Shown piece after piece: positions 1,113 through 3,458 of a DNA stretch of 64,000 bases (the stretch's first letter is position 1; each line of letters opens with the position of its first letter). The notes beneath the pieces are model-generated. The model was given only the letters and a program-made list of their open reading frames with translations. It searched no databases and had not been told where the DNA came from. Origin of the DNA: Humidesulfovibrio mexicanus (lineage in GTDB: Bacteria; Desulfobacterota; Desulfovibrionia; Desulfovibrionales; Desulfovibrionaceae). The translations under genes were made by a program, and so were the position numbers. The stretch lies in NCBI RefSeq assembly GCF_900188225.1, contig NZ_FZOC01000002.1, positions 62,001 to 126,000 of the forward strand, given 5' to 3'.

Positions 1113-3458
1113 ATGGAACGCACGGACATTTTGCGGCTTGTGGGCGGCACCCCGCTGGTGGAGATTCGCCGCCTGAATCCCCATTCTGGCGTCAAAATCA
1201 TGGCGAAGCTGGAGTGCATGAACCCCGGCGGCTCCATCAAGGACCGCGTGGCCGCGGCCATGATCGAGGCGGCGGAGCACAGCGGCGAGCTTGTCCCCGG
1301 CAAGACCATCATCGAGGCCACCAGCGGCAACACGGGCATTGGCCTGGCCATGGTGGCCGCGGTGAAGGGCTACAAGATGTGCCTCATCATGCCCGATTCC
1401 GCCAGCGAGGAGCGCAAGCGCATCATGCGCGCCTACGGCGCGGAGATCCGCCTCACTCCCGGACGGCTGGGCACGGATGGCGCCATCGAGCTGGCCTACC
1501 GCCTGGCCCGCACCGAGCCGGACACCTACGTGCTCATGGACCAGTTCAACAACCCCAACAGCATCGCCGCCCACTACAACGGCACCGGCCCGGAAATATG
1601 GGAACAGACCGGCGGGAGCGTGACCCATGTGGTGGCCGCGCTGGGCACCTCGGGCACGGCCATGGGCCTGGCCAAGAGCATGCACGAGCATCCGGGCGTG
1701 GCGGTCTGCGCCATAGAGCCTTTTGCCGGGCACAAGATCCAGGGCCTCAAGAACATGCACGAGTCCTATCCTCCGGGCATCTACAACAAGAAGGCCCTGG
1801 ACCGCATCCTGCGCGTGGAGGACGAGGAGGCCTTCGAATGCTGCCGCCGACTGGCGCGCGAGGAAGGGCTGTTCATGGGCATGAGCTCCGGCGCGGCCCT
1901 TGCCGGGGCGCTTAAGCTGGCGGCGGAGCTGGCGGCCGAGGGCAGGGGCGGCTACATCGTGGTGATTTTTCCGGACGGCGGGGAACGCTACCTGTCCACC
2001 CCGCTGTTCGCCCCCAAGAGCAAGGACGGCCTGCGCCTGATGAACCTGGCCACCGGCGGCAAGACCCACCTCGACGCCTCGGGTGCGCTCCACGTCTACT
2101 GCATCGGCCCCAGCCTGGACGAGCCCGACGAGCCTGACGCCTGGCGCAGGTTCGTGCTTTCCGACGTGCTGGTGCGGCATTTGCGCGCGCGCGGCCTGGA
2201 GGCCCGGCTGGCCGTCGGTCTGGCCGACCTGGACGACCGCACCCTTGCCGCGGCCCGCGCGGCCGGTCTCTCGCGCGCGCAGTACGCAGAGGGTGCGGTG
2301 GCGCGCATCACTGCCCGCGCGGCCGAGCTGGGCGCGCTGCCGGACACGGTCTTCGAGTCGGCCTCGGCCTCGGTGCCCAGGGCGCTGGAGATCTGCCGTA
2401 AGCTCTTGGGCAAGGGCCTGGCCTACGAGAAGCTCCGCAGCGTGTATTTCGACGTGCGCCGCGATCCCCGCTACGGGGCCATGAAGCTTATGGACATGGA
2501 CGGGCTTTCCGTGGGCAAGACCGTGGACCTGGGCGACTACGTGAAGGACAATCCCCTGGACTTCACGCTGCTCAAGCGCGCTACCCTGCAAGACCTCAAG
2601 CTCGGCGACATCATCGAGACCGAGTGGGGCAACGTGCGGCCCAGCTGGTTCATGCAGGTGGCCGTGGCCGGGCTTGCCGCCCTGGGCCGCGTGGACGTGC
2701 TGGTGGGCGGCGAGGAGCACCAGTTCCCGCACCTGGAGAACCTGCGCGCCATCTGGAGCGCGGCCGGGGTGGAGGTGAAGGCCTGGCTGGCGGACCGCAA
2801 GATATCGCGGCCCGAGGGCGGGGAACCCGTGTCCCTGGAACGGCTCATGGAGCTGGCCGGCGGAGCGGCGGCGCTTCGGTTGTGGCTTTTGTCCTCCTCC
2901 TACCGCAAGAGCCTTGCCGCCGGAGAGCAGAGCCTCTCCATGTGGGCGCGCAACTGGCACAAGGTGCAGGAGGCCGCCTGCGCCCTGCGCCTGGCCCTTG
3001 GCGACGAGGCCGCGTCCGGTCAGGACCGCGAAGCCGGGCCAGCGGAAGAGGTGGAGCAGGCCGTTTTCGACCTCAAGGCCGCCCTTACCGCCGCCTGCGA
3101 GGACGACCTTTCCCTGCACCGCTACTGGCCGGGGCTGTTCACCTTCGTCAGGCGCGTCAACGCCTGGATTACGGCGGGCAGGCTGAACCGGGCCGGGGCC
3201 GCCGCCTGCCTGAAGCAGTTGGAGGCCGCGGATGCGGTGCTGGGCATTCTGGACGCCAGCCGGATGCCCGTGGCCTGCGGTTGCCTGCCGGACGCCGTGC
3301 GCACCCTGGTGGACCGGCGCGAGGCCGCCCGCAAGGCCAAGGATTTCGCCGCCTCCGACGAACTGCGCGGGGAACTGGCCGCCCTGGGCTATCGCGTGGA
3401 GGACACGGCGCAAGGCCCGCGCGTGTACCGGCGCGACGCCGCAAGGCAGGACGCTTAG
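1113..3458 (+). CDS. Cysteine synthase fused to a degenerate cysteinyl-tRNA synthetase-like domain
   Basis: A 781-aa two-part protein. Residues 1-300 are a PLP-dependent O-acetylserine sulfhydrylase: the Schiff-base lysine is K43 in SIKDR, the substrate loop is TSGNTG (70-75) and the PLP-phosphate loop is GTSGT (178-182). MRAYGAE is CysM-like. Residues 325-781 align in order with class I CysRS (FVLSDVLVRHL, ADLDDRT, VGGEEHQFPHLEN, LRLWLLSSSYR), but the catalytic elements are gone. HIGH is replaced by EPDEPDA, and KMSKS by KISRPEGG. Of the zinc ligands, the first Cys has shifted to VYCIG, the HIEC Cys is absent (FMQV), and FPHHENE reads FPHLENL. Cysteine synthesis is therefore well supported; tRNA charging is unlikely. 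The role of the second half is unknown; a cysteine- or tRNA-sensing regulatory domain is one guess. AGGGG lies 9 bases before the ATG. The gene is probably co-transcribed with the next one. Confidence 0.9.
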   Translation: MERTDILRLVGGTPLVEIRRLNPHSGVKIMAKLECMNPGGSIKDRVAAAMIEAAEHSGELVPGKTIIEATSGNTGIGLAMVAAVKGYKMCLIMPDSASEERKRIMRAYGAEIRLTPGRLGTDGAIELAYRLARTEPDTYVLMDQFNNPNSIAAHYNGTGPEIWEQTGGSVTHVVAALGTSGTAMGLAKSMHEHPGVAVCAIEPFAGHKIQGLKNMHESYPPGIYNKKALDRILRVEDEEAFECCRRLAREEGLFMGMSSGAALAGALKLAAELAAEGRGGYIVVIFPDGGERYLSTPLFAPKSKDGLRLMNLATGGKTHLDASGALHVYCIGPSLDEPDEPDAWRRFVLSDVLVRHLRARGLEARLAVGLADLDDRTLAAARAAGLSRAQYAEGAVARITARAAELGALPDTVFESASASVPRALEICRKLLGKGLAYEKLRSVYFDVRRDPRYGAMKLMDMDGLSVGKTVDLGDYVKDNPLDFTLLKRATLQDLKLGDIIETEWGNVRPSWFMQVAVAGLAALGRVDVLVGGEEHQFPHLENLRAIWSAAGVEVKAWLADRKISRPEGGEPVSLERLMELAGGAAALRLWLLSSSYRKSLAAGEQSLSMWARNWHKVQEAACALRLALGDEAASGQDREAGPAEEVEQAVFDLKAALTAACEDDLSLHRYWPGLFTFVRRVNAWITAGRLNRAGAAACLKQLEAADAVLGILDASRMPVACGCLPDAVRTLVDRREAARKAKDFAASDELRGELAALGYRVEDTAQGPRVYRRDAARQDA

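Follow-up and report, generated by a model that had tools for sequence, protein, structure and literature searches.

The window (the whole 64,000-nucleotide stretch of DNA that was analyzed) carries a gene in which an apparently intact cysteine synthase is joined to a half resembling cysteinyl-tRNA synthetase (CysRS) that has lost its ATP motifs. We give an even chance to the reading, drawn from sequence comparisons, that the product is a cysteine synthase independent of serine acetyltransferase (CysE) and that its dead CysRS is an attached domain that senses or docks tRNA-Cys. The synthase half would make cysteine from O-phosphoserine (or serine) and not from O-acetylserine, while the CysRS-like half would bind tRNA-Cys through the anticodon without charging it. 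The bound tRNA-Cys, probably through its charging state, would adjust the synthase; alternatively, its binding would hold the synthase where cysteine gets used. In lineages that retain the zinc pocket, cysteine is a possible second ligand. The narrower proposal, that across much of the phylum cognate tRNA-Cys gates a CysE-independent synthase fed by O-phosphoserine through the fused dead synthetase, is tentative, and we lean against its holding in full. If correct, these ideas would explain how cysteine is made in many genomes of the phylum lacking a recognizable serine acetyltransferase, and would add a case of a dead synthetase coupling amino-acid biosynthesis to the cognate tRNA. They predict specific binding of tRNA-Cys requiring the arginine and aspartate residues named below, and cysteine formation without CysE.

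The gene is a single open reading frame on the forward strand (positions 1113-3458) encoding a protein of 781 residues followed by a stop codon. It matches the Pfam domains PALP (residues 7-288, E 4e-73), tRNA-synt_1e (324-607, E 3e-27), and CysS_C (725-767, E 1e-7), each above the Pfam cut-off. The CysRS-like half is whole and covers about residues 324 to 773 (~450 residues). The fusion proposed in the original prediction is thus found as one frame containing both domains. We aligned 146 fusion proteins (159 minus 9 duplicates, 3 short sequences, and 1 with unknown residues) with 26 canonical CysRS as references, one from E. coli and 25 from the phylum. The features of the gene are as follows.

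1113..3458, + strand: whole gene, cysteine synthase plus CysRS-like half (open reading frame and Pfam)
1113..2012, + strand: cysteine synthase half of the CysK/CysM type, residues 1-300 (PF00291 at 7-288; TIGR01136)
1239-1241, + strand: PLP lysine K43 (alignment; K43 in 143 of 146 fusions, gapped in 3)
1749..1757, + strand: K213-N214-M215, a fusion-specific block of the substrate loop (K213 and N214 in 146 of 146)
2082..2933, + strand: catalytic domain of the CysRS-like half, residues 324-607, without the ATP motifs (PF01406, E 3e-27)
2103..2744, + strand: span of the former zinc site, with I331/V516/H540/L544 in place of C28/C209/H234/E238 (alignment with E. coli CysRS)
2130..2150, + strand: EPDA (340-343) at the HIGH position, then WRR including R346 (alignment with E. 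coli CysRS)
2427..2531, + strand: family-specific connective block 439-473, EKLRSVYFD ... GKTVDL (alignment of the fusions)
2799..2813, + strand: KISRP (563-567), near the lost KMSKS loop (alignment)
3285..3413, + strand: anticodon-binding domain CysS_C, residues 725-767 (PF23493, 32.1 bits, cut-off 23)
3318..3404, + strand: kept anticodon-domain residues R736, R740, D749, R752, and D764, equivalent to E. coli R423, R427, D436, R439, and D451

The fusion is widespread. Of 395 genomes sampled from the phylum, 152 have a CysRS-like half (profile E 1e-70 or better), and among the matches listed every such half lies within an open frame of at least 740 residues. Both halves were in one frame in all 139 loci first read and in all 20 further, diverged loci, which gives the 159 proteins mentioned above. 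Among relatives of the window's genome, 46 of 59 have the fusion, own genome counted; in three genomes (G003, G006, and G055) it is interrupted by contig ends or gaps. A scan of named genomes confirmed 583 stretches, and the best 80 are titled Deltaproteobacteria or groups within it (75), only Proteobacteria or Pseudomonadota (4), or Bacteroides (1). The latter record (LJUQ01000146.1, Bacteroides sp. SM23_62_1) does have the fusion and is perhaps a misnamed metagenome bin. We also considered spread of the fusion by plasmids and rejected it: 546 plasmid records have matches to the CysRS-like half, none reaching 60% identity, and the 15 listed include 10 annotated as cysS and 5 without a listed feature.

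In a phylogenetic tree of 60 fusions and 24 canonical CysRS, built by a quick method with SH-aLRT support and without bootstrap, all fusions lie beyond one branch (SH-aLRT 100). A single ancient fusion event is the simplest reading. The 15 sequences from the window's order, which we take to be Desulfovibrionales, form one clade with a long stem (1.37 changes per column). In the eight pairs of lowest dS among 78 same-genus pairs, dN/dS ranged from 0.185 to 0.357 in the CysRS-like half and from 0.060 to 0.234 in the synthase half. Both halves are under purifying selection, which is looser in the CysRS-like half, and the open reading frame is therefore not a chance occurrence.

Along its whole length the CysRS-like half can be aligned with solved structures of bacterial CysRS, among them 3tqo (E 5.5e-33) and the E. 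coli enzyme (E 7.9e-32), and it has a weaker match to MshC (E 1.4e-3). It remains below the cut-off of the cysS equivalog TIGR00435 (137.5 bits vs 340). The HIGH position reads EPDA in the window protein, and an HxGH motif was found in only 2 of the 146 fusions (L064 and L087). The KMSKS position is gapped, and the nearby KISRP is not conserved among relatives. Across the 146 fusions, 70 have Lys266, 3 have Lys269, and none reads KMSKS, keeping in mind that the alignment of this loop is uncertain because most sequences of the window's order have a gap here. The loss of HIGH and KMSKS was anticipated in the original prediction, and proved to be near-uniform among the 146 homologues. The best preserved copy, L087, has HLGH and KPSKS, and residual ATP use is possible there judging from these motifs.

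The disappearance of HIGH and KMSKS speaks against a working CysRS joined to a cysteine synthase, as does the finding of canonical enzymes elsewhere. The window's own genome encodes a canonical cysS on contig C6 (E 7e-136, KMSKS present), a separate gene whose existence had been predicted, and canonical CysRS were identified in 14 of 14 genomes of the phylum that were checked and in 41 of the 45 other fusion genomes of the order. One of these 41 canonical genes (G002:C2:129281-130649) is in two reading frames, reflecting a frameshift or a sequencing error. What favors a working enzyme is that no canonical cysS was found in the remaining 4 of the 45, i.e., in G011 (73% complete), G049 (84%), G050 (97%), and G012 (100%), the last being of the same genus as the window. 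In these four, a full-length cysS profile matched the fusion and, weakly, other long frames, but nothing else. Assembly gaps are most simply the cause, we infer; still, this is the one result that leans toward what the original prediction had named as its refutation, the lack of another cysS together with charging of tRNA-Cys by this protein. Given the motifs and the second cysS, we rejected a working CysRS, which we consider extremely improbable.

The zinc site is also reduced. The residues C28, C209, H234, and E238 of E. coli CysRS, which we take to be the zinc ligands, are replaced in the window protein by I331, V516, and L544, with only the histidine (H540) kept. This one ligand out of four agrees with the prediction that most of them were lost. 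The picture differs across the family: 93 of the 146 fusions retain C28, C209, and H234 together, vs none of the 32 from the window's order, and the pocket residue Trp205 is retained throughout. These retained residues are what one would expect if the CysRS-like half were a tRNA-free sensor of cysteine as end product, with the old amino-acid and zinc pocket feeding back on the synthase. However, C28 and C209 are missing in 32 of 32 fusions of the order, where the half is still under selection, and such a sensor leaves the frozen anticodon domain (see below) unexplained. We find this alternative unlikely. Sensing by the zinc pocket as a general mechanism was rejected for the window's order, and for this protein the cysteine sensing raised in the original prediction is not supported as far as it would use that pocket.

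The fusions have also fixed residues of their own. An arginine is present at position 43 (R346 in the window) in 144 of 146, whereas canonical enzymes have serine, alanine, or threonine. Other newly fixed elements are Thr168, Leu189, Leu192, the EKLRSVYFD block, and the GKTVDL block. These fusion-specific residues and blocks, including the region 439-473, are perhaps the interface with the synthase.

In contrast with the nucleotide fold, the anticodon-binding domain is highly conserved. Using the numbering of E. coli CysRS, all 146 fusions have R423, D436, R439, and D451 as well as an aromatic residue at position 432, and 141 have R427 (the remainder being 4 Lys and 1 Gln). A published study gives Arg423, Arg427, Trp432, and Asp436 as the contacts to G34 of E. 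coli tRNA-Cys (PMC12684709). The window protein thus has a CysRS feature comprising the anticodon-binding domain and the residues in contact with G34. To quantify the contrast, we took the 96 positions that are invariant in the 26 canonical CysRS and counted them as kept when conserved in at least 97% of the fusions. In the nucleotide fold, 3 of 22 such positions were kept in the N-terminal part and 7 of 39 in the C-terminal part. The connective region kept 13 of 25, the helical bundle 0 of 4, and the anticodon domain 5 of 6. The difference between the anticodon domain and the two nucleotide-fold parts taken together (10/61) has a Fisher p of 0.0016, a descriptive value since neither positions nor sequences are independent and kinship is ignored. 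The suggestion in the original prediction that the protein might sense tRNA-Cys gains support from these conserved residues. The helical bundle counts against our reading, and the residues of the anticodon domain could instead be retained for folding.

This brings up another unlikely alternative, in which the half is retained chiefly as a scaffold that helps the synthase to fold or oligomerize, or recognizes an anticodon-like loop of an mRNA, and does not read tRNA-Cys as a metabolic signal. ThrRS is known to bind such a loop in mRNA. A scaffold or mRNA-binding role fits the strong divergence of the nucleotide fold in the window's order, where 0 of the 22 canonical N-terminal invariants are kept at 97%, and the higher dN/dS relative to the synthase half. 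Yet, few residues of the half vary as little as those of the anticodon domain, and at Rfam thresholds we found no known RNA family beside the gene in 11 loci, a search that covers known families only. Its only matches were two tRNA genes in one locus (L084), lying downstream of the fusion at a distance of about 1.8 kb.

The other half of the protein looks like a normal cysteine synthase. It passes the cut-off of the cysKM subfamily TIGR01136 (357.3 bits vs 344.15) while missing those of the narrower equivalogs, both cysM (358.8 vs 394.2 bits) and cysK, and among solved structures those of E. coli CysM are the closest to it. The PLP lysine K43 and the TSGNTG and GTSGT loops are all retained, in agreement with the original prediction, in which this half keeps its lysine and loops. 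At the position of K213, the three standalone CysK that we compared have a gap followed by GAGF, vs K213 and N214 in all 146 fusions, and the SPVLSGGxxGPH loop of these three enzymes is missing from the fusions shown. K213 may bind the phosphate of O-phosphoserine. A study of Thermococcus kodakarensis describes an organism with no clear serine acetyltransferase that uses O-phosphoserine, for which a phosphate-recognizing lysine or arginine was proposed (PMC5120207).

The distribution of cysE bears on the substrate of the synthase half. We searched the 395 genomes of the phylum with the fusion profile, with TIGR01136 for cysKM (E 1e-70), and with TIGR01172 for cysE (E 1e-36, a limit set after the results of smaller tests were seen). 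The 152 genomes with the fusion comprise 72 with a single cysKM match, which we assumed to be the fusion itself, and 80 with further cysKM matches. Only 2 of the 72 sole-fusion genomes have cysE (G151, 80% complete, and G199, 9% contaminated) vs 76 of the 80 with another cysKM (the exceptions being G185, G187, G288, and G374). The Fisher p of this split is 1.2e-35 with kinship ignored; ten families hold both states and present the same split. Among genomes without the fusion, cysE is found in 184 of 243. As a side observation, cysKM is without a match at E 1e-70 in 12 of these 395, some of them near-complete, e.g., G303 (100% complete).

The smaller tests gave the following results. The first, at 1e-20, gave cysE matches in 4 of 15 sole-fusion genomes, 9 of which had been preselected for having no second CysK; the match in G199 is typical and the other three are weak (110 to 120 bits at best, with the first 22 to 24 profile positions missing). 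The second test covered 56 genomes, of which 53 have cysE: all 34 that carry the fusion plus another cysKM, and 19 of the 22 that lack the fusion. That the fusion can be the sole cysKM was also seen with a stricter limit (E 1e-30), at which this was so in 15 of 22 genomes (including the 9 preselected for no second CysK). In the window's order, cysE belongs with the standalone cysK, since it lies within 2 kb of it in 29 of the 36 genomes where both were placed, own genome included. Because cysE is so rare in sole-fusion genomes and so frequent in those with another synthase, serine acetyltransferase is most likely not needed by the synthase half. The window's genome has itself the usual standalone cysK with an adjoining cysE (C9:16371-18202), and therefore the fusion is not the sole cysteine route there: this genome probably has two.

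Regarding the amino-acid donor, O-phosphoserine is perhaps used, and serine itself is possible. Of 16 genomes searched for serC (TIGR01364), own included, just 3 gave a match, which counts against a supply of O-phosphoserine. This scarcity agrees with the published gap in the serine synthesis of Desulfovibrio vulgaris: one source found no high-confidence genes for standard serine synthesis in this species (PMC7311316), and another mentions that phosphoserine phosphatase was not found in earlier work (PMC5764234).

The absence of cysE from 70 of the 72 sole-fusion genomes, and the union of a sulfhydrylase fold with a domain of the tRNA-binding type in one protein, would also suit a ligase or tRNA-linked chemistry, in which cysteine or a tRNA-bound serine derivative is presented to the synthase, as in MshC or in the archaeal Sep-tRNA route. 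Against this, the ATP motifs are lost, the MshC model TIGR03447 gives 47.9 bits for a cut-off of 485.1, and SepCysS is stated to be absent from D. vulgaris in a passage of PMC5764234. We regard such chemistry as very unlikely. An MshC-like ligase was rejected on the TIGR03447 score and the lost ATP site, and the ligase-type reaction raised in the original prediction is, on the same evidence, not supported for this protein.

How does a synthase carrying a putative tRNA-Cys sensor compare with known systems? The fusion resembles CysS (PF01406/TIGR00435) in having the same domain order, including an anticodon-binding domain of which 5 of 6 invariants are kept, but it lacks HIGH and KMSKS, has a reduced zinc site, and is joined to a synthase. 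It shares with CysK and CysM (PF00291, TIGR01136) the catalytic lysine and the substrate loops, whereas the K213-N214 loop, the occurrence without cysE, and the CysRS-like half set it apart. A dead synthetase paralogue is the regulatory partner of an enzyme making the same amino acid in HisZ-HisG, where HisZ is a separate subunit derived from the class II HisRS and has no anticodon domain. Set side by side by description, the two systems share a dead synthetase serving the enzyme of its cognate amino acid, which is a separate subunit there and fused here. To our knowledge, MshC has no anticodon domain. MshC is presented in PMC2922099 as a CysRS paralogue used outside translation; it adenylates cysteine, unlike the fusion, whose HIGH/KMSKS adenylation site is gone.

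The archaeal O-phosphoserine sulfhydrylases (A. pernix OPSS and T. kodakarensis CysK), which we also set beside the fusion by description, are cysteine synthases of organisms without a clear serine acetyltransferase, according to excerpts of PMC5120207 in which no CysRS-like half is described. The trait of occurring without serine acetyltransferase fits the sole-fusion genomes, while the window's own genome has cysE. In open-licence papers we found no description of a fusion of cysteine synthase and CysRS, which is weak evidence of absence. The subject of PMC2922099 is the role of synthetase-like proteins in making peptides, with cysteine synthase named there just as a neighboring gene, and the topic of PMC4301749 is fungal synthetases. 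PMC3431258 reports that DVU0663 of D. vulgaris, a cysK by annotation, is increased in biofilms.

Finally, we clustered the flanking open reading frames of 79 named loci, and no cluster points to a function. The commonest one, which matches nothing in Pfam or NCBIfam, is found in at least 16 loci. Upstream of the fusion, genes for SurE, a YhaM-like exonuclease, and dTMP kinase recur in at least 12 to 14. These counts are lower bounds because many loci end at contig ends. In the window, the upstream gene is MptE-like and on the opposite strand, and hence the fusion probably starts its own transcript. This upstream frame (1-1054, - strand, extending beyond the window) also matches, weakly, the N-terminal domain of the Maf flagellin glycosyltransferase.
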